Part shown: piece by piece, positions 7,138-47,388 of the stretch
Numbering within the stretch: the first letter of the stretch is position 1
Layout of the letters: every line of letters begins with the position of its first letter
Source of the DNA: Halobacteriales archaeon YIM A00010
GTDB taxonomy: Archaea; Halobacteriota; Halobacteria; Halobacteriales; Haloarculaceae
DNA length: 64,000 nucleotides
Reading direction: 5' to 3'
NCBI GenBank assembly: GCA_025041175.1
Contig: JAKCFJ010000001.1
Span: 1,364,001-1,428,000 of the forward strand
Translations under genes and position numbers: made by a program
Notes under the pieces: generated by a model
Database searches by the model: none
Seen by the model: only the letters and a program-made list of their open reading frames with translations
What the model was told of the DNA's origin: nothing

Positions 7138-8310
7138 TTAGTCGATGACGAACACGTCTGAGACGTTCCAGGCCAGGTAGAACAATCGCCCGTCGGCGAC
7201 GACAGGCTGCGAACCCACCGGAAGGTCGGGCCAGTGGCGCACACGGTCGCCAGTTACGGCATCCAGTGCGTGAATCCCAGTGTTTGCCCCCGTGACGAGC
7301 ACACGATCTCCCGTGATAACCGGTCCCCCACCACTATTGCCCGTCCCGAACGTCCATAGGCGGTCACCGGTGGCCGCGTCTCTGGCGATCGTCCGTGATC
7401 CATTGCCCGCCCCGACGACGACGTATCCGTCCGCAATCGCAGGTGGGTCATAGATACCGGATTCGACGGTCGCTTCCCACTGGATGGTCCCATCCGTGAC
7501 AGAGAGCGCTGTCATCGTTCCCCACTTCGAGACCACGTAAACGGTGTCGTTGGCAACGACCGGGATGGCGTAGATCGGTTCGAGATCATCCGTGTGCCAC
7601 CACTCGTTGCCGTTGTTGGTGAAAGCAGTCACTGCACCGTTATCGTTGCTCCCCGAGCCGACATACACACGGTCACCGACAGCAACGCCGTGTGCCATGT
7701 GCGTGGTTCGTGCCTGCCAACGCTCGGTGCCCGTCGTGGCATCGAGTGCGGTGACGCCCGATCCGGTGATGTAGATGGTATCGTCGACCACGACCGGCGA
7801 AGAGGAGCTACTGAGTGTCCCCTTGTCTATTCGCCACAACACGGACCCATCCGATTGATCGAGCGCCAGAGTTTCATTCAGCGTGCTCACGTAGACGGTC
7901 CCACAGGCGACCGCTGGACTCGTTGTGATACCATCGTCGGGATTGATTTCCCACAGCCGCGTCCCCGTTTCGATCGCCCGGGCTTCGATCCGCACGTCAC
8001 CCGCGACGTACACGACGCCATCACTGATGGCCGGTGGGGCATCGGTGCTCCCACTACCTGCCCGTGTTCCGGTCCGGGAGAATCGGCGCGCGTTTGCGGT
8101 GGCTGGTGGCAGATCGCGGGCGGGAAGACGACTCGTATGCGATCCATCATAGCCAGCCATGGGCCACGTCGGGGCAGTGGGCGAGCAATCGATCAATGGG
8201 GATGACGAACTCGGAACCAAAACGTCCGAACAGCCAGCGAACATGGCTGTTCCAACGGTAGAAAGGACTGCACGGCGTGTCGGTGACGAGAATCGACCGT
8301 GCTGACGCAT
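7138..8310 (-). CDS. Tat lipoprotein with PQQ-like beta-propeller repeats
   Basis: A 390-residue protein with a twin-arginine signal (SPTRRAVLSTVGTAMFAGC) ending in a lipobox AGC, so it is probably exported by Tat and lipid-anchored outside. The mature chain is a series of PQQ/Trp-docking blades: TRLWEINPDDGITTSPAV, GSVLWRIDKG, TGTERWQAR, GTIQWEATVE and ATGDRLWTFGTG. This is like the BamB/PQQ-repeat proteins common on haloarchaeal surfaces. No dehydrogenase catalytic residues are evident, so it is more likely a scaffold or binding protein. An AT-rich TATA-like stretch near 8333-8340 sits about 27 nt before the ATG. The gene stands alone. Confidence 0.85.
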   Translation of the reverse strand: MRQHGRFSSPTRRAVLSTVGTAMFAGCSDVLVPSSSSPLIDCSPTAPTWPMAGYDGSHTSRLPARDLPPATANARRFSRTGTRAGSGSTDAPPAISDGVVYVAGDVRIEARAIETGTRLWEINPDDGITTSPAVACGTVYVSTLNETLALDQSDGSVLWRIDKGTLSSSSSPVVVDDTIYITGSGVTALDATTGTERWQARTTHMAHGVAVGDRVYVGSGSNDNGAVTAFTNNGNEWWHTDDLEPIYAIPVVANDTVYVVSKWGTMTALSVTDGTIQWEATVESGIYDPPAIADGYVVVGAGNGSRTIARDAATGDRLWTFGTGNSGGGPVITGDRVLVTGANTGIHALDAVTGDRVRHWPDLPVGSQPVVADGRLFYLAWNVSDVFVID

Positions 8311-8427
8311 ACGATACGACTACACGGAAAACAAATATAACTTTTGGAGATTTTTGAGAGAAATGTAACATCCAAGGGCAAAACAGTCGTCCGAGCGAAC
8401 CGGATCGAAGTCAGCGCCGTGACTTTT

Positions 8428-9720
8428 TCACGGCCACAGCCCGCGATACTCGTGTGCCTCGACGATGCGCTGGAGTCCAACGACGTAGGTGGCGTCGCGC
8501 CAGGAGACGTCGTCGTGGAGTTCGTACGTTTCCTTGACGTTGTCCCACGCGGACAGCATTTCGGATTCGAGTTCCTCGTTGACGCGTTCGAGCGACCAGC
8601 CCTGTCGGTTGATGTCCTGGAGCCATTCGAAGTACGAGACGGTGACGCCGCCGGCGTTGGCGAGGATGTCGGGGATCACGGGGATTCCCCGGCGGTTGAA
8701 GATCGTATCAGCAGTCGAGGTCGTTGGGCCGTTCGCGCCTTCGACGATCATCGAGGCGTTGATGTCGTTGGCGTTGGCCTCCGTCAGCACGTTGCCGATC
8801 GCGGCCGGGACGAGAACATCCACGTCCAGCGTGAGCAGCTCCTCGTTCGAGAGCGGTTCGGCCCCAGAAACGCCGGTGACGGCGGTCGGTTCCTCCCCGT
8901 GGGATTTGATCGCCGTCGGATCCAATCCCTCGGGATCGTACTCCGCCCCGTCGATGTCGCTGACCGCCACCACGTTCGCACCCCACTCGTCGAGGAGCGA
9001 AGCGGCGTTCGCCCCGACGCTGCCAAAGCCCTGGACGGCCACAGTCGTCTCCGAAAGCGGGCGGTCGTAGTAGTCACACGCCTCCCGAGTGATGAGGGCG
9101 ACGCTGCGTCCGGGAGCTTCCTCGCGGCCGTAGGACCCGCCGATGACCGGCGGTTTCCCCGTCACGACGCCAGGGGTGGTTTCGCCTTCCTGCATGCTGT
9201 AGGCGTCCATGAGCCACCCCATCGTCTCCGCGTCCGTGCCCATGTCCGGCGCGGGAATGTCGTGCATCGGTCCGATAACGTCCCGTATCTCCTGTGCGAA
9301 CCGGCGCGTCAACCGCTCTTTTTCCCCTTGGGACAGCGTCTTCGGATCCACGACGACGCCGCCTTTCGCCCCGCCGAACGGGAGATCCATCACGGCGCAC
9401 TTCCACGTCATCCACATCGCAAGCCCGATGCACTCCTCCTCGGTCACCTCCGGATGATACCGGAGACCGCCCTTGAACGGTCCACGAACCGAATCGTGTT
9501 GGGCGCGATAGCCGGTGAACACCTCTACCGTTCCATCGTCGCGCTCGAGCGGAATCGACACCCGCTCGACGCGCTGTGGGTGTTTGAGCCGTTCGACCAC
9601 GTTCGGATCGATCTCCAACAGCGTCCCTGCCCGTTCGAGCTGCCGCCGTGCCGTCATGAACGCCGATTCGGGCTCGGGCTCTTCGGACTGTTCTTGCGCG
9701 ATGGACGCACCAGTTGCCAC
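8428..9720 (-). CDS. gdh: Glutamate dehydrogenase (Glu/Leu/Phe/Val family)
   Basis: A 430-residue hexameric-type enzyme interconverting glutamate with 2-oxoglutarate and ammonia. The substrate-binding and catalytic region reads [17 protein letters not shown], then [19 protein letters not shown] containing the active-site lysine. The catalytic Asp-type motif PAPDMGTD follows, and the Rossmann motif [13 protein letters not shown] binds the dinucleotide. Cofactor choice cannot be read with certainty. The first in-frame start is GTG at 9720; the frame stays open further upstream with no ATG. The inferred promoter (9821-9830) points to transcription starting near 9797, where a 24-codon ORF in another frame begins. 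Confidence 0.93.
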
Positions 9721-14478: not shown

Positions 14479-15088
14479 AGAGACCACGCTCCCCGAGGGG
14501 TGGCAACGAATCGAATCGGTCACCGAATACGAAACCGGCTGGTACACCGGCGGGTACGACCGGCTCGAACAGCCCGACGGCACCCAAAAGCGCTACTACT
14601 GGGCCAAACTCCCGCCCGCCGTCGTCGTCGTTGCTCGTGACGGATCGGAGCTGGTGATGGTCGAACAGTACCGCCCGCCGATCGAGCGGCTCTGTCTCGA
14701 ACTGCCCGCCGGCATCGTGGACGCCGCGGATCACACCGAAGAGATCGAGCGCGCCGACACGCCGGGAGGTCTTCCGCCCGCCGCGGACGTTCCACCCCCC
14801 GTGTACGAAGCCGCCGGTGCGCGCGAGCTGCGCGAAGAGACGGGCACCCATCCCACGGAAACCGTCTTTCTCGAAGAGGTCTGGATCGCAACCGGACTGC
14901 TCACCCACCGGCGGGGGTACGTCTTCGCAACCGGTCTCGAACCGGCCGAGCGGAAGCTCGACACCAACGAGTTCATCACTGTCGAACGGATCCCCGTCGA
15001 CAACGCGCTCGATATCGCACGGGAAGACCCCACCAACGACGCAACGCTCGAGGGGCTGCTGTTGGCCGACGCCGAGGGGCTGATCTAA
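14471..15088 (+). CDS. NUDIX hydrolase, ADP-ribose pyrophosphatase-like
   Basis: A 205-residue protein. The NUDIX-box core RELREETGT (REUXEEXGU) is intact at about residues 118-126, preceded by ELPAGIVDAADHTEE. The region before the box carries an insertion of roughly 20 residues (ADTPGGLPPAADVPPP) unlike compact NUDIX enzymes. VEQYRPPIERLCLELPAGIVD is the ADP-ribose/nucleoside-diphosphate-sugar hydrolase signature. It probably cleaves ADP-ribose or related housecleaning substrates using Mg2+. The ATG at 14471 overlaps the DUF5809 stop, marking a two-gene operon. Confidence 0.88.
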   Translation: MREETTLPEGWQRIESVTEYETGWYTGGYDRLEQPDGTQKRYYWAKLPPAVVVVARDGSELVMVEQYRPPIERLCLELPAGIVDAADHTEEIERADTPGGLPPAADVPPPVYEAAGARELREETGTHPTETVFLEEVWIATGLLTHRRGYVFATGLEPAERKLDTNEFITVERIPVDNALDIAREDPTNDATLEGLLLADAEGLI

Positions 15089-15127
15089 CATCTAGCAGTA
15101 TATCCGTTATCAGCGGGTTGTTGTGGT

Positions 15128-15472
15128 ATGGACGACGAGATCACTGCCGAGGAACTGCAGTCGATACTCGAAAACGGAAACGACGTTCGGCTCGTGGACA
15201 TCCGCAACCCCCAAGCGTTCGAACAGGGACACATCCCCGGCAGCGACAACATCCCGTTCGAGGAGCTGCCACAACGGGTCGAGGAACTCGACGGCGAGGA
15301 CCGGATCGTCACGGTCTGCCCGCTCGGCAAATCGTCCGTGCAGGCCGCCCGACTCATCGCCTCCTACGAAGGAGCGAGCGACGCAACCGTCGAGAGCCTC
15401 GCCGGTGGACTCCGGGAGTGGGAGTACGCCCTCTCGGGGAGCCAAACCGACGAAGCCGACGCTCCCTTTTGA
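15128..15472 (+). CDS. Single-domain rhodanese-like protein
   Basis: A 114-residue protein with one rhodanese fold. DVRLVDIRNPQAFEQGHIPGSDNIP is the CH2A region, and the active loop reads CPLGKSS with the catalytic cysteine that carries persulfide. GGLREWEYAL closes the domain. It probably moves sulfur between donors and acceptors in the cytoplasm, but the partner is unknown. It lies 39 nt behind the NUDIX gene, on the same strand, and may be part of that transcript. Confidence 0.9.
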   Translation: MDDEITAEELQSILENGNDVRLVDIRNPQAFEQGHIPGSDNIPFEELPQRVEELDGEDRIVTVCPLGKSSVQAARLIASYEGASDATVESLAGGLREWEYALSGSQTDEADAPF

Positions 15473-15522
15473 TTCACCGACAGCTTCCCCAGCGATACGT
15501 CAGGCCAAGAGAAGAAAGTTCG

Positions 15523-15840
<318 letters not shown>

Positions 15841-15903
15841 CTATTAAACACTGTCGACCGTTCACCCCGAAATCGGGCCTCGAACCCGTTCGAGAGGCGC
15901 TTG

Positions 15904-40744: not shown

Positions 40745-41167
40745 ATGGACTATCGGACTGTCGAAAGCAGCCGCGAGTTCGTCGCCCGGATGGACCACGG
40801 CGCGGACTGGCGCGCCCAGATCGAGGCGTTCGCGGAGGAACAGGAGATCGATGCGGCGTTTTTTCACGGATTAGGAGCCGTTCAGGACGCAGAGCTGTTG
40901 TTTTACGACCAGGACGACCTGGAGTACCGGCCGATCGCGTTCGAGGAGCCACTGGAGGTGACCGCCTGTATCGGGAACGTTTCCCACCTGGACGGTGAGC
41001 GGTTCGCCCACACGCATGTGACGCTTTCCGACAGGGAGGGGCGGACCGTCGCGGGGCACCTCGACCGAGCGACGACGTTCGCGGGCGAGCTGTACGTTCG
41101 GGAGTTCGACACCGAACTGGTCCGCCAGCGGGATGGGACGACGGATCTGGACCTCTGGGAGCTGTGA
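40745..41167 (+). CDS. PPC/DUF296 domain protein
   Basis: A 140-residue single-domain protein of the PPC (DUF296) family. It has REFVARMDHGADWRAQIEAF, FFHGLGAVQDAELLFYD and the HxH metal-type motif in FAHTHVTLSDREG. In plants the domain is fused to AT-hooks; in prokaryotes it stands alone and probably forms metal-binding trimers, with unclear DNA contact. Its last 4 nt overlap the GTG start of the DNA polymerase D large subunit (GTGA), so the two genes are translationally coupled and perhaps functionally linked. Confidence 0.9.
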   Translation: MDYRTVESSREFVARMDHGADWRAQIEAFAEEQEIDAAFFHGLGAVQDAELLFYDQDDLEYRPIAFEEPLEVTACIGNVSHLDGERFAHTHVTLSDREGRTVAGHLDRATTFAGELYVREFDTELVRQRDGTTDLDLWEL

Positions 41168-44100
41168 ATCCCGAGGAACGCTATTTCGAACGCATCGAAT
41201 CCCAGCTGGACGACGCGTTTGCGGTCGCTCAATCGGCAAAAGAACGCGGGGGGGATCCGAAACCCGACGTGGAGATCCCGGTAGCCAAAGACATGGCCGA
41301 CCGCGTGGAGAACATCCTCGGCATCGAGGGTGTCGCCGCGCGGGTCCGCGAACTCGAAGGGCAGATGAGCCGCGAGGAGGCCGCGCTCGAGCTGGCCGAA
41401 GATTTCGCCGAGGGTCGAGTTGGCGAGTACGAAACGACGGCCGGGATGATCGAGGGCGCAGTGCGGACCGCCGTTGCGCTGCTCACGGAGGGCGTCGTGG
41501 CGGCCCCCATCGAGGGGATCGACCGCGTGGAACTGCTCGAAAACGGCGACGGCACCGAGTTCGTCCGGGTGTTCTACGCCGGCCCGATCCGTTCTGCGGG
41601 AGGGACGGCACAGGCGCTCTCGGTGCTCGTCGCGGACTACGCCCGAACGCTGCTCGGGCTGGACCGGTACAAACCCCGCGATGAGGAGATCGAGCGATAC
41701 GCCGAGGAGCTGGGGCTGTACGACGACGAGACCGGGCTGCAGTACTCCCCCAAAGACGAGGAGACGACGTTCATCGCGGAACACTGCCCGATCATGCTCG
41801 ATGGGGAGGCCACGGGCGAGACGGAGGTGTCTGCCACCCGTGATTTAGAACGCGTCGACACGAACAACCCGCGGGGTGGGATGTGCCTCGTGCTCGGGGA
41901 GGGGATCGCCCAGAAGGCCCCGAAGATCAAGCGGTACACCGAACAGCTCGATGAGGTCGAGTGGCCGTGGCTCGACGACCTGATCGAGGGAACGATCGGC
42001 GATGGGCCGGACGCCGACAGCGAGGCCGACGCCGGTACCGACGATGGTGACCCGAGTGACGAGACGAGCGAGGCTCCCACGGAGGCGGGACCACCCCGAG
42101 CGGAGTCGACAACGAAGTTTCTTCGGGACCTCATCGCCGGCCGGCCCGTCTTCTCCCACCCCTCGCGAACGGGTGGCTTTCGGCTGCGGTACGGACGGGC
42201 ACGGAACCACGGGTTTGCGACCGCCGGCGTCCATCCGGCGACGATGCACCTCGTTGACGACTTCCTCGCCACCGGCACCCAGATCAAAACCGAACGCCCC
42301 GGCAAGGCCGCGGGCGTCGTGCCCGTAGACACGATCGAGGGACCGACAGTTCGGCTCGCAAACGGCGAGGTGCGCCGCGTTGACGACCCCGAGGAGGCCC
42401 TAGAGATCCGCAACGGCGTCGAAGCCATCCTCGATCTCGGGGAGTATCTCGTCAACTACGGGGAGTTCGTCGAGAACAACCACCCGCTCGCGCCTGCTTC
42501 TTACACCGTCGAATGGTGGGTCCAGGAGTTCGAGCGCGCCGGCGCCAACGCACAGGCGTTGGGCGACGATCCCCACGTGGATCTTTCCGATCCCACCGTG
42601 GAAAAGGCGGTAGCGTGGGCCACCGAGTACGACGCACCGCTCCACCCGAAGTACACGCATCTGTGGCACGACCTCACTGTCGAGCAGTTCGACGCGCTGG
42701 CCGACGCCGCCTCGGCGGGACGATTCTCCGAGACCGGTGGCGCGCTGATCGTTCCACGGACCGAATCCATCCGGATCGCGCTCGAAACGCTCCTCGTCGA
42801 GCACACGACCGACGACGCGATTGAGATTCCCGACGCTGGCGCGCTGGTCCGCTCGCTCGGACTCACCGACGATCTCGAACGGGAGTGGTCGATGGCCGAC
42901 CTGTCCGACGGCGCGCGGTCGTGGGGCGCGAACGACGACGGAACCAACGCCATCAGGGCGGTGAACGAGGTCGCGCCGTTCTCGGTTCGTGAGCGCGCGC
43001 CGACCCGCATCGGCAACCGGATGGGTCGCCCGGAGAAATCCGAACAGCGCGAGCTGAGTCCGGCGGTCCACACGCTGTTTCCGATCGGTGAGGCCGGTGG
43101 CAGCCAGCGGGACGTCACACAGGCGGCCGCGCACACCGAGTCGATGCGATCGACCGCCGGGCAGGTCGAGCTGCAGATCGCCCGCAGGGAGTGCGTCGAC
43201 TGTGGGACGACGACGTTCACGGCACGGTGTCCGGACTGTGGCGGGGTCACGGATCCGGTGTACGTCTGTCGGGACTGTGACATCCGCGTCGAACCCGACG
43301 AGTCCGGGCGTGCGGAGTGTCCCCGGTGTGAGGAGCTTGCAACCCCCGTCGAACGCCGGGAGATCGACGTGAATGGGGCGTATCACGACGCGCTGTCGGC
43401 CGTCGGAGAGCGGGAACACGCTTTCGATATCCTCAAAGGGGTGAAAGGACTCACTTCCGAGCAGAAAGTCCCCGAGCCGATGGAAAAGGGGGTTCTGCGC
43501 GCGAAACACGACGTCTCGGCGTTCAAAGACGGCACGATCCGGTACGATATGACCGATCTCCCGGTGACGGCCGTCCGCCCCGCCGAGCTGGACGTAACCG
43601 TCGAGCAGTTTCGCAAGTTGGGGTACGAGACCGACATCGACGGCGAACCGCTCCGCCACGCCGACCAGCTGGTCGAGCTCCGGGTCCAGGACATCGTTCT
43701 CTCCTCGGGGGCGGCCGAGCACATGCTCAAAACGGCGGACTTCGTTGACGACCTCCTCGAACAGTACTACGGGATGGACTCCTTTTACGAAGTCGACGAA
43801 CGCGACGATCTCGTGGGCGAGTTGGTGTTCGGCATGGCTCCACACACCTCCGCAGCGGTCGTCGGGCGCGTCGTCGGGTTCACCGACGCTGCCGTCGGCT
43901 ACGCACACCCTTATTTTCACGCTGCGAAGAGGAGAAATTGCGACGGCGACGAAGATTGCGTGATGTTGCTGTTAGACGGGCTGTTGAACTTCAGCAAGCT
44001 GTATTTACCGGACAAACGCGGTGGGAGCGTGGCGGCGGACACGCGGCTCACCGCGTTCGATTCTGCGGGCGCAGTCCGGAATCTCCCGATCGAGGAGCTC

Positions 44101-46122
44101 TGGACCCAGCTCGACTGTCCGATCGAGTACGACGGGAAGTTCCAGAAAAAGAGCTGTGCCGGCGAAGGATGGACGACGTACGCGTTCGACGAGAACCACG
44201 AGGCAGCGCCCAAACCGATCGAGAAGGCCATCCGGTACCGCGTCGAGGACGAACAGCTGCTCCGCGTCCAAACGCAGTTCGGCCGGTCGCTGACGATCAC
44301 GGACAACCACAGCCTCTTCCGGTACGACGACGGCATCGAGACGGTTGCCGGGGAGGACCTCGAGGCCGGCGATCTGATCCTCGCGCCCCGCCGGTTGCCG
44401 GTCGAAGAAACCCAAACCACGATCGACGTGACCGACTGTTTCGATGCGCCCCACGTCTTCATCGACGATCCGGACCAAGGGCACCGATCGGCGCGGCAAA
44501 CGCTCCCGTTCGGGACGGTTGCCGGCGACGAGGCCCACGGTCCCGGATCCGTTCCTGACGTGATGGAGATCGGGCGGAAGGGGTCGGAAACCGGTCTCAA
44601 CCGGTACATCCCCGTCGACGAAGAGGCCGCGTGGCTGCTCGGGCTGTTCGTCGCCGAAGGCGAACGCGATGGGCGGCCAACGATCACGCTCACGGACGCC
44701 GACGTGGTCGACCGAGCGGTGGAGATCGCAACGCGAACGCTCGGGTGTGAGCCGGCCGTCGAGAGCGGGACTTCAGAACCCCATCGCATCGGCTTTCCGG
44801 CCGTGTTCGGCGACGTGCTGAGTCATCTCGGGTTTGCAGACGCCGGAGCCGACGGCGACGGGTCCGTCGTTCCGGACTGTGTTCTCCGGGGGGAGCGCCA
44901 GGTCGTGCAGTCGTTCCTTCGGGGCTACATGGCCGGCGAGCACGGCGGGAGCGAGAACAGTTGTCACTCCCGGATCGATCTCCACGCGAGCAACGAGTCG
45001 GTCAAAGACGGGCTGGTCTTCCTGCTCCACCGCCTCGGTCTGGTCGCGGACATCACTCACTGCCCACGGAGAGAGCCGGCGTACACCCTTTCTGCGACCC
45101 GGGAGACCCAAGCCGACGGCGGTGACGAGGAGTCCCAGGAGGATCTCGTGGTCACCGTTCCCGACGCCTTACTAGAACTCCGCGAGACCGTGCAGGACAT
45201 CGGCCGGCTCATTCCACGGAAGTACGCGCGTCGGGAGACGATCCCCGTCACGAAGCTCCGGGAGATCATCGATGCGCTCGACCGGCGTGAGCTGCCGTCA
45301 ACGGCCGAAACCCGTCTGGACCGACTCCGCCCGCTCGTCGAGGGCGACCTCGCGTATCTCCGAGTGACGAGCGTCGAGCACGTCGACTACGACGGTTACC
45401 TGTACGATCTGCAGGTGGGCGGCGAGCCGATATTCACCGCGAACTGGCTGTACGCTCACAACTCCATGGACGCGCCGCTAGTGATGTCCTCGCGGATCGA
45501 TCCCACGGAGATCGACGACGAGGCCCACAACGTCGACATCGTCTCCTCCTACCCCTTGGAGTTCTACGAGGCGACGCGCGAGATGGCCGACCCCGGCGAG
45601 GTCGACATCACGATCGCGGAGGAGACGCTCGGAACCGACGACCAGTACTCCGGCTTCGAACACACCCACGACACCTCGGATCTCGCCGCCGGACCGGATC
45701 TCTCCTCCTACAAGACGCTCGGGTCGATGCTGGAGAAGATGGACGCACAGCTACAACTCGCGCGAAAGCTCCGGGCAGTCGATGAGACCGACGTGGCAGA
45801 GCGCATCATCGAATACCACTTCCTGCCGGACCTCATCGGCAACCTCCGGGCGTTCGCACGCCAGGAAACCCGGTGCCTCGACTGCAACACGAAGTATCGC
45901 CGGATGCCCCTCACTGGCGAGTGCCGGGAGTGTGGCGGGCGCGTGAACCTCACCGTTCACGAGGGATCGGTCAACAAGTATCTCGACACCGCGATCCGCG
46001 TCGCTGAGGAGTTCGACTGCCGGGAGTACACCAAACAACGACTCGAAATCCTCAAACGACAGCTCGAAAGCGTCTTCGAAAACGACCAGAACAAACCCTC
46101 GACGCTCGGGGATTTCATGTAG
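41164..46122 (+). CDS. polC: DNA polymerase D large subunit DP2, with intein
   Basis: A 1652-residue precursor; the mature protein without the intein is 1173 residues. DP2 is the catalytic chain of the replicative archaeal polymerase. The active-site Asps D927 and D929 are in NCDGDED. Zinc-binding Cys clusters appear near residue 677 (CVDCG...CPDCGG...CRDC...CPRC) and near 1570-1592 (CLDCN...CRECGG). An acidic insert (about 280-315) is halophile-like. The intein occupies residues 955-1433, about 25 residues after the catalytic motif, and must be removed for activity. The GTG start overlaps the PPC gene by 4 nt. Confidence 0.95.
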   Translation: MNPEERYFERIESQLDDAFAVAQSAKERGGDPKPDVEIPVAKDMADRVENILGIEGVAARVRELEGQMSREEAALELAEDFAEGRVGEYETTAGMIEGAVRTAVALLTEGVVAAPIEGIDRVELLENGDGTEFVRVFYAGPIRSAGGTAQALSVLVADYARTLLGLDRYKPRDEEIERYAEELGLYDDETGLQYSPKDEETTFIAEHCPIMLDGEATGETEVSATRDLERVDTNNPRGGMCLVLGEGIAQKAPKIKRYTEQLDEVEWPWLDDLIEGTIGDGPDADSEADAGTDDGDPSDETSEAPTEAGPPRAESTTKFLRDLIAGRPVFSHPSRTGGFRLRYGRARNHGFATAGVHPATMHLVDDFLATGTQIKTERPGKAAGVVPVDTIEGPTVRLANGEVRRVDDPEEALEIRNGVEAILDLGEYLVNYGEFVENNHPLAPASYTVEWWVQEFERAGANAQALGDDPHVDLSDPTVEKAVAWATEYDAPLHPKYTHLWHDLTVEQFDALADAASAGRFSETGGALIVPRTESIRIALETLLVEHTTDDAIEIPDAGALVRSLGLTDDLEREWSMADLSDGARSWGANDDGTNAIRAVNEVAPFSVRERAPTRIGNRMGRPEKSEQRELSPAVHTLFPIGEAGGSQRDVTQAAAHTESMRSTAGQVELQIARRECVDCGTTTFTARCPDCGGVTDPVYVCRDCDIRVEPDESGRAECPRCEELATPVERREIDVNGAYHDALSAVGEREHAFDILKGVKGLTSEQKVPEPMEKGVLRAKHDVSAFKDGTIRYDMTDLPVTAVRPAELDVTVEQFRKLGYETDIDGEPLRHADQLVELRVQDIVLSSGAAEHMLKTADFVDDLLEQYYGMDSFYEVDERDDLVGELVFGMAPHTSAAVVGRVVGFTDAAVGYAHPYFHAAKRRNCDGDEDCVMLLLDGLLNFSKLYLPDKRGGSVAADTRLTAFDSAGAVRNLPIEELWTQLDCPIEYDGKFQKKSCAGEGWTTYAFDENHEAAPKPIEKAIRYRVEDEQLLRVQTQFGRSLTITDNHSLFRYDDGIETVAGEDLEAGDLILAPRRLPVEETQTTIDVTDCFDAPHVFIDDPDQGHRSARQTLPFGTVAGDEAHGPGSVPDVMEIGRKGSETGLNRYIPVDEEAAWLLGLFVAEGERDGRPTITLTDADVVDRAVEIATRTLGCEPAVESGTSEPHRIGFPAVFGDVLSHLGFADAGADGDGSVVPDCVLRGERQVVQSFLRGYMAGEHGGSENSCHSRIDLHASNESVKDGLVFLLHRLGLVADITHCPRREPAYTLSATRETQADGGDEESQEDLVVTVPDALLELRETVQDIGRLIPRKYARRETIPVTKLREIIDALDRRELPSTAETRLDRLRPLVEGDLAYLRVTSVEHVDYDGYLYDLQVGGEPIFTANWLYAHNSMDAPLVMSSRIDPTEIDDEAHNVDIVSSYPLEFYEATREMADPGEVDITIAEETLGTDDQYSGFEHTHDTSDLAAGPDLSSYKTLGSMLEKMDAQLQLARKLRAVDETDVAERIIEYHFLPDLIGNLRAFARQETRCLDCNTKYRRMPLTGECRECGGRVNLTVHEGSVNKYLDTAIRVAEEFDCREYTKQRLEILKRQLESVFENDQNKPSTLGDFM
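44026..45462 (+). other. Intein with LAGLIDADG endonuclease in DP2
   Basis: 479 residues between RGG and SMDAPL of the polymerase. It starts with Ser in SVAADTRLTAFDS (splice block A) and ends in ANWLYAHN, followed by Ser+1. The N-terminal splicing motif VQTQFGRSLTITDNHSLF carries the block B His. Endonuclease motifs are LLGLFVAEGE and FLRGYMAGEHG, each with Glu in the catalytic acid place, so endonuclease activity is possible. Like other polymerase inteins it targets the most conserved part of the enzyme, just behind the catalytic NCDGDED. Confidence 0.9.
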
Positions 46123-46154: not shown

Positions 46155-46165
46155 ATCTTTATGGC
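46155..46165 (+). promoter_or_regulatory. TATA box of the structured RNA
   Basis: CTTTATGG (TTTATG at 46158-46163) is centred 26 nt before position 46186, exactly the first base of the long closing helix of the RNA. This is the standard archaeal TATA-to-start spacing. Confidence 0.65.
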
Positions 46166-46185
46166 CATTGCTACCCAATACCATA

Positions 46186-46475
46186 CTGTAGTAGCAGCCA
46201 CGAGGGGCACACCGGACGATTCGATCCGGTTCGTCCATACGGGACGAGCTGGATCGGGTTAGAGGTACAACCAAAGACCCCGTAACAAGGGAACAAGGTG
46301 AACGCCTCGAAGGAGAACCGAGGCGGTCCAGCACCCATCCGCCAGGGAGGGTGGGAGAAAAGGCCAAGTAGCGGATCTCGTGCAAACGGGATTCGTGAAA
46401 CTGGGCAACCAGCACGGTCGTAAGGACCGTTGAAAACATCTCCCGTCCGGGTCCAAACCGTGGCTGCTACCACAG
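46186..46475 (+). ncRNA. Structured non-coding RNA of about 290 nt, family unknown
   Basis: The ends pair in a 17-bp helix with one mismatch (46186-46202 with 46459-46475; core GTAGCAGCCAC/GTGGCTGCTAC). Inside are hairpins at 46211-46230, 46231-46247, 46303-46325 (7-bp CGCCTCG/CGAGGCG), 46332-46353, 46372-46395 (10 bp, GCAA loop), 46401-46412 (CTGG-GCAA-CCAG) and 46414-46430 (ACGGTC...GACCGT). GGGG (46204-46207) can pair with CCCC (46278-46281). A TATA box lies 26 nt upstream, and a T/C-rich tract (TTCTCTTCC) follows the end. I see neither the SRP RNA core (GGAAG...AGCA) nor the RNase P GAGGAAAGTCC. The gene follows polC and precedes a VOC gene by 68 nt, so a riboswitch-like role is possible but an independent RNA is more likely. 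Confidence 0.65.
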
Positions 46476-46542
46476 TTCTCTTCCATCGTCGGATCTGCGA
46501 CGGGAGCTTAAGAGTCCAGCATCCGTACTGACGACCGTCCTC

Positions 46543-47388
46543 ATGTCGAACCCACGGACGAAGCTCCCGGAATCGGCGCGCATCGGACGCGTCACCCTCC
46601 GCGTTGGTGATCTCGATCGGATTGTCGAGTGGTACGAGACCGTGGTCGGTCTCGCGGTACACCACCATGGAGAGGATCGGGCAGTTCTGGGCACAGGAAC
46701 CGAACCGCTCTTGACGGTGGTCGCCGCCCCGTCCGTCCCGCCGCGGGGTGGAAACGAGACGGGACTGTTCCACGTCGCGTTTCGGGTGCCGTCGCGGACG
46801 GCGTTGGCCGACGCGCTCGGACGGGTTCGCCAGCAGTGGCAGCTCGACGGCGCATCCGATCACCTCGTCAGCGAGGCGTTGTACCTCACCGATCCGGAAG
46901 GAAACGGCGTGGAAGTGTACTGCGACCGACCGCGCGACGCGTGGCCAAACGCCGATTCGGACGGTGCCGTCGGCATGGAGACGCGTCCGTTGGACGTGGA
47001 ATCACTGCCCGACCGTCCACACCCCAAAACGGCGGTTCCCGCCGGAACGACCGTCGGCCACGTGCATCTCGAAAGCTCCGCGCTCGCTGCCGCACGAGCG
47101 TTCTACGTCGACGATCTCGGTCTTCGGGTTCGAGACCGATTCGGGGAGTCGGCGCTGTTCGTCGCTGCGGGCGACTACCACCACCACGTCGGACTCAACA
47201 CGTGGAACGAACGGACCAAGCCACACACGGGGCGAGGGCTTGGTGGGTTCGAACTCGTGGTCCCCGACCACGCGCTCGACGCGGTTCGAACGCGCCTGGA
47301 CGCGAGCGGACGAACCCACACCACCACAGGGGACGGCATCGAGGTGTCCGATCCGGACGGGATCGACATCAAAGTGATCACCGAGTGA
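46543..47388 (+). CDS. VOC-family dioxygenase/glyoxalase-like protein
   Basis: A 281-residue protein with two tandem VOC (glyoxalase/extradiol dioxygenase) modules. The first starts RIGRVTLRVGDLDRIVEWYE and holds FHVAFRVPS and VEVYCDRPRDAWP. The second starts GHVHLESSALAAARAFYVDDLG and ends DPDGIDIKVITE. Candidate metal ligands include H in TVGHVHL and the acidic residues near each end. It matches CatE-type catechol-2,3-dioxygenase-like proteins widely found in bacteria and haloarchaea. The true substrate is unknown. The ATG is 68 nt after the structured RNA; a TTAAG element at 46508-46512 about 31 nt upstream could be its own promoter. Confidence 0.88.
   Translation: MSNPRTKLPESARIGRVTLRVGDLDRIVEWYETVVGLAVHHHGEDRAVLGTGTEPLLTVVAAPSVPPRGGNETGLFHVAFRVPSRTALADALGRVRQQWQLDGASDHLVSEALYLTDPEGNGVEVYCDRPRDAWPNADSDGAVGMETRPLDVESLPDRPHPKTAVPAGTTVGHVHLESSALAAARAFYVDDLGLRVRDRFGESALFVAAGDYHHHVGLNTWNERTKPHTGRGLGGFELVVPDHALDAVRTRLDASGRTHTTTGDGIEVSDPDGIDIKVITE

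Follow-up and report, generated by a model that had tools for sequence, protein, structure and literature searches.

The window analyzed here is a 64,000-nucleotide stretch of the genome of Halobacteriales archaeon YIM A00010. A predicted structured RNA gene occupies positions 46186 to 46475 of its forward strand, flanked by the polC/DP2 frame at 41164-46122 and a VOC-family gene at 46543-47388. The prediction draws on a fold z-score of -10.6, a family-model match of 134 bits and covariation among homologs. The gene probably starts between 46186 and 46191 and ends at about 46475. Inspection of the polC/DP2 translation (1652 aa) by eye suggests an intein-like insertion close to the C-terminal third.

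Putative transcription signals bracket the RNA. The initial annotation placed a TTTATG box some 26 nt upstream of the first paired base and a T/C tract after the terminal helix, and both are present. The TATA box is at 46158-46163 on the forward strand, and TATA-like boxes stand at the matching distance in homologs, where they cluster 40-46 nt 5' of a GAGGAC element, a spacing that puts them about 26 nt ahead of the start of the RNA. A promoter-proximal element at 46178-46186 (+) reads GGTANCATAC in many homologs and ATACCATAC in the window, the window copy being a divergent match recognized by eye. Exact copies of GGTANCATAC were counted in 1.41 Mb of loci, and 10 of the 12 lie just upstream of the RNA gene, making the element almost exclusive to it. 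The pyrimidine tract TTCTCTTCC at 46476-46484 (+) is the probable termination zone, and homologs are enriched in T at the same place. None of the reading frames stays open in all the homologs.

The VOC start codon is about 68 nt 3' of the RNA and a VOC gene is also downstream in a close relative (G003), as would suit the alternative that the RNA acts in cis on VOC as a leader or riboswitch. The genes 3' of the RNA differ or point the opposite way in other genera, no conserved same-strand downstream gene was found, and the terminal helix, the promoter and the T-rich end are features of most homologs. The RNA is not a VOC leader because the TATA box and promoter-proximal element are conserved while the neighboring genes are not. 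The change of neighbors between genera refutes the leader as a general explanation, and we consider this reading extremely improbable.

Fold and covariation of the RNA

The free energy of the 46186-46475 segment is -148.2 kcal/mol compared with -96.4 ± 4.9 for shuffled sequences (z = -10.6), and the minus strand of the locus has a fold z-score of -6.6. P1 (P1a, P1b and P1c) closes the molecule, followed by a variable P2, P3, the joining strand GAAGGAGAACCG and the P4 domain. The 17-bp end helix proposed initially is exact and pairs 46186-46202 with 46459-46475 through a single A.C mismatch. Its inner 9 bp are conserved and its outermost 5 bp are not. The conserved P1a 5' strand (46191-46202, +) pairs with 46459-46470 and shows compensatory changes in all 9 counted pairs. 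P1b and P1c, separated by an ACA bulge, have their 5' strands within 46205-46218 (+). P1b pairs GGGC at 46205-46208 with GUCC at 46451-46454, and inside it P1c pairs CCGGACG at 46212-46218 with CGUCCGG at 46444-46450; 98-99% of the cells in these two helices are paired, with compensatory changes in 8 of 11 pairs. These pairings replace the GGGG/CCCC long-range interaction of the initial annotation, which has no covariation support and whose CCCC belongs to a local hairpin. The 3' strands of P1c, P1b and P1a together with the conserved CGTCCGGGTCCAA make up 46444-46475 (+), as defined by alignment and covariation.

Within P1, the P2 arm (46219-46261, +) is a 5' arm that varies in length and sequence, is taken from the minimum-energy fold and is unalignable across the family. 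The P3 stem-loop (46262-46308, +) consists of P3a, P3b and P3c with a GUAACA loop, and 8 of its 12 pairs have compensatory changes. The weakest of all the helices is P3a, at 71% paired in the 38-sequence alignment. The conserved joining strand GAAGGAGAACCG (46309-46320, +) is near-invariant in alignments A1 and A4. The P4 domain (46323-46430, +) is closed by the covarying helix P4 (46323-46329 with 46424-46430) and contains P5 (46334-46355), P6 (46362-46365 with 46416-46419), the GNRA hairpin P7 (46372-46395) and P8 (46401-46412), all on the forward strand. P7 and P8 are the two GCAA-capped hairpins recognized at the outset. The conserved core AGGCCAAGTAGCGGAT at 46361-46376 (+) corresponds to AAGGCCAAGTANCGGA in the family alignments.

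Covariation was measured with a hand-built 66-pair model on a full-length alignment of 38 sequences, with RNAalifold and a count of pairs substituting for the R-scape analysis suggested initially. In this alignment 91.1% of the cells are paired, and 51 of the 66 pairs have compensatory (two-sided) changes. There are 338 covarying cells compared with 94.5 ± 11 in shuffles, and sliding the partners by 1-3 columns lowers the paired cells to 31-48%, a control that is somewhat favorable in that the structure was picked with the same alignment in view. The excess of covarying cells is too large for a choice-of-structure effect.

Identity and distribution of the RNA family

The RNA was compared with known families. 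An Rfam 15 scan of both strands of the RNA gave no match up to E = 1, and scans of homologs (13 loci with an E limit of 1 and 8 with the gathering threshold) gave nothing over the RNA at gathering score. Archaeal SRP RNA (RF01857) resembles the window RNA in its length of about 300 nt and its paired ends, and archaeal RNase P RNA (RF00373) is likewise large, closed by a helix and tied to RNase P protein. The covariance model of SRP RNA has no match to E = 1 and that of RNase P RNA has none either, and the genuine genes are elsewhere in the genome (RNase P RNA at G000:C1:142391-142702 and SRP RNA at G000:C1:1610231-1610540), in agreement with the initial view that the RNA is neither. A box C/D guide RNA was rejected since RUGAUGA and CUGA are both absent from the window RNA and none of 82 homologs has the two. 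The RNA had no match in phage records and none by pattern in viral contigs, and an origin from a phage or virus was rejected as well. OLE, GOLLD and ROOL are likewise large conserved structured RNAs of unclear function; they differ in being bacterial or phage families with other gene associations, and the window RNA has no Rfam match. A search of the accessible main text of haloarchaeal RNA papers returned no matching RNA. Judged by its absence from Rfam 15 and the searchable papers, this RNA family is previously undescribed. Covarying homologs, a conserved promoter, the lack of an Rfam match and separate SRP and RNase P RNA genes uphold the initial proposal of a new stand-alone structured RNA.

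BLAST located relatives in 18 of 59 genomes. A covariance model built from a 138-nt core was applied to 391 Halobacteria genomes with a cut-off of E below 1e-9 and detected the RNA in 108 of them, representing 40 genera and 8 families, with scores reaching 144 bits in other families. Outside Halobacteria, three genomes have the RNA: G418 and G427, with E values close to 1e-12 to 1e-11, and G436, with 1e-5. The lineage of G418 and G427 is possibly Methanonatronarchaeia, and in both genomes the RNA (L160 and L161) adjoins a TrkA-type potassium channel gene.

The family varies by domain replacement and repetition. The window RNA retains P8, which in many genera is swapped for 1-3 tandem GGUGNRANNCC hairpins. 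Their loops fit the T-loop pattern, for which shuffling gives a chance expectation of about 0.05 per RNA, and such hairpins are missing from the window RNA and about half of the family. The likeness of the hairpins to tRNA T-arms is a lead drawn from sequence. L105 (G371; 7990-8850) carries about six copies of the P4-P8 domain, spaced about 120 nt apart, and its RNA is thereby enlarged to roughly 900 nt; the same series of matches is seen in L104 (G345). Locus L089 (G117) has two tandem copies of the RNA gene about 440 nt apart. Two plasmids of Natrinema sp. SYSU A 869 (L170) carry copies that are 75-76% identical to the window copy, and transposase genes on both sides of the RNA on the L170 plasmid examined suggest transfer.

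Association of the RNA with HARP and the Rnl3 ligase

Clustering the neighbors of 82 RNA copies revealed no universal neighbor. The gene next to the RNA is TIGR03875, the RNA ligase partner protein, at nine loci from several families; PDB chains with the name RNA-free ribonuclease P identify this protein as HARP. In bacteria without the RNA enzyme, HARP works as an active protein-only RNase P, and it is also found in archaea that have the RNA-based RNase P (PMC12153264, PMC10941002). The adjacency was used as a prediction and HARP was then sought in the same 391 genomes. HARP is in 161 genomes, the RNA in 108 and both in 102 (Fisher p = 2e-43, a value inflated by ignoring relatedness). A rough stratified test within genera that have HARP-positive and HARP-negative members, with labels among the genomes listed, gave 27 observed compared with 20.4 expected (exact p = 6e-5). 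HARP also accompanies the RNA in each of the three genomes from outside Halobacteria. The 102 of 108 overlap, the within-genus result and the relatives outside the class indicate co-occurrence beyond shared ancestry. The active-site acidic motifs of HARP are intact.

Six RNA-bearing genomes lack HARP, and four of them (G332, G350, G401 and G409) are under 90% complete (82-89%); the other two (G008 and G094) are 99% complete. The RNA copies of the latter pair, L079 (G008) and L128 (G094), are among the more diverged copies.

In most genomes the RNA and HARP are unlinked. In seven genera (g8, g15, g37, g39, g48, g76 and g82) from unrelated lineages they are about 70-280 nt apart, in two arrangements with the RNA either upstream and divergent or downstream and convergent. 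The chance of six HARP-adjacent genera in 40 is about 3e-14. In Halorussus halophilus the RNA occupies a gap in the annotation that adjoins the gene of the RNA ligase partner, and in G347 it is 131 nt past the HARP-ligase pair. HARP and the ligase of the window's genome form a divergent pair on another contig (G000:C2:13575-14204 and 14855-15868), so co-occurrence in this genome is not due to linkage.

These data could arise with no functional tie if the RNA and HARP were patchy accessory genes retained in common lineages or replicons. Both are patchy and sometimes plasmid-borne, and kinship of the genomes inflates the co-occurrence statistics. (HARP of G003, a close relative, has coordinates matching plasmid NZ_CP096020.1 of Halocatena salina, from which the window's genus is probably Halocatena.) However, the adjacency recurs in seven genera of several families and in differing arrangements, the within-genus test and the relatives outside Halobacteria show the same pairing, and co-occurrence extends across replicons, as in the window's genome. 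We regard coincidental retention as highly improbable and assign a probability of about 0.9 to a functional link between the RNA and HARP, as judged from these genomic patterns.

The module of HARP and the Rnl3 RNA ligase (TIGR01209) has the same patchy distribution as the RNA. Rnl3 is above cut-off in 121 genomes, every one of which has HARP, and no genome has the ligase without HARP. RNA, HARP and ligase are together in 63 genomes, RNA and HARP in 39, HARP and ligase in 58, HARP alone in 1 (85% complete) and RNA alone in 6. The RNA is present in 39 of the 40 HARP genomes without ligase (p = 2.5e-8 for RNA versus ligase among HARP genomes). Rescanning the HARP genomes that have the ligase and no detected RNA with the broader model R2 recovered a single marginal match (G140, 7e-7), so most RNA absences are genuine at that sensitivity. 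A G249 match to the RNA model aligns poorly and was left out of the counts.

The two-protein association of HARP and Rnl3 has been reported (Seshadri and Gopalan 2025, PMC12153264), and the retention of both forms of RNase P was called a mystery. Like the ligase of this module, the RNA depends on HARP and is often beside it. The published module differs in being composed of two proteins for which box C/D RNAs were proposed as shared substrates, and the accessible text of the study makes no mention of a dedicated structured RNA component.

Possible roles of the RNA

The three-way pattern bears on what the RNA might do. One reading is that the RNA is a dedicated HARP substrate whose 5' end is trimmed by HARP and which Rnl3, where present, circularizes, leaving a mature RNA with an unrelated job. 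The RNA is nearly always accompanied by HARP, its paired ends place the 5' and 3' termini together, and Rnl3 circularizes RNAs and is linked to HARP (PMC12153264). Circularization is not required, however, since 39 genomes have RNA and HARP without the ligase. By the TATA spacing, the transcript would begin no more than a few nt from the first helix, with little leader left to trim, and a substrate role leaves unexplained why HARP without ligase almost always has the RNA. A dedicated substrate is rather unlikely on this balance.

The RNA might instead be a cofactor or scaffold in a ribonucleoprotein that performs the archaeal function of HARP, with the RNA organizing the HARP oligomer or redirecting its specificity. 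The co-occurrence and adjacency, the modular P4 domain and the intact catalytic motifs would all suit such a particle. The RNA is missing from the 58 HARP-plus-ligase genomes and is therefore not an obligate cofactor there, and no antisense or guide segment was identified in it. We judge a cofactor role unlikely.

Our preferred reading, held tentatively, is that the RNA restrains HARP. The RNA would be a stand-alone, trans-acting product of its own TATA promoter and the dedicated RNA partner of HARP, a small oligomeric protein-only RNase P. HARP oligomers would bind it, with the repeatable P4 domain and, in RNAs that have them, the T-arm-like hairpins as points of contact, and HARP held in this way would be kept from cleaving other RNAs, making the RNA an antitoxin-like molecule or decoy. 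The Rnl3 ligase would meet the same need by another route, the repair of cleaved RNA. Restraint is preferred because genomes essentially never retain HARP when both the RNA and the repair ligase are missing, published HARP knockouts are silent and the RNA repeats its own domains. The roughly six-fold P4 domain of L105 would suit a multivalent ligand of oligomeric HARP. Knockouts of HARP in Haloferax volcanii and Methanosarcina mazei had no effect on growth (PMC12153264, PMC10941002), and a silent knockout in H. volcanii (PMC12153264) is what would be expected of a toxin-like protein, a putative assignment for haloarchaeal HARP. We infer neutralization of a toxic endoribonuclease by the RNA from distribution only. 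Still more tentatively, HARP may be a regulated and potentially harmful RNase whose carriage is made safe by the RNA (or ligase), with the T-arm-like hairpins and repeated P4 domains acting as tRNA mimics.

Several observations run against restraint. The 58 HARP-plus-ligase genomes without detectable RNA indicate that HARP can work without it, and the presence of RNA and ligase together in 63 genomes means that they are not simple substitutes. The near-complete genomes G008 and G094 hold the RNA without HARP; an orphan restraining RNA is tolerable under this reading and is not predicted by it. T-loop-like arms are absent from the window RNA and about half of the family.

In type III toxin-antitoxin systems (ToxIN, TenpIN and CptIN), an RNA, sometimes with repeated structural units, partners an endoribonuclease. 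The RNA described here is likewise linked to an endoribonuclease and has repeated units in some members. It differs in its separate promoter, its mostly unlinked locus, its length of about 290 nt and the unrelated fold of the nuclease. The arrangement of tandem repeats directly 5' of the toxin gene in one operon was not found; the RNA is mostly unlinked to HARP and otherwise divergent or convergent, with internal repeats in some members only.

A conserved RNA that is almost never without HARP in near-complete genomes provides a first concrete handle on the archaeal role of HARP and gives work on this protein a specific candidate partner. The RNA is, in addition, a new family of large structured RNAs in which domains repeat as modules. 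If restraint is correct, the RNA and HARP would constitute a new RNA-protein system in which a protein-only RNase P is under the control of a large structured RNA.
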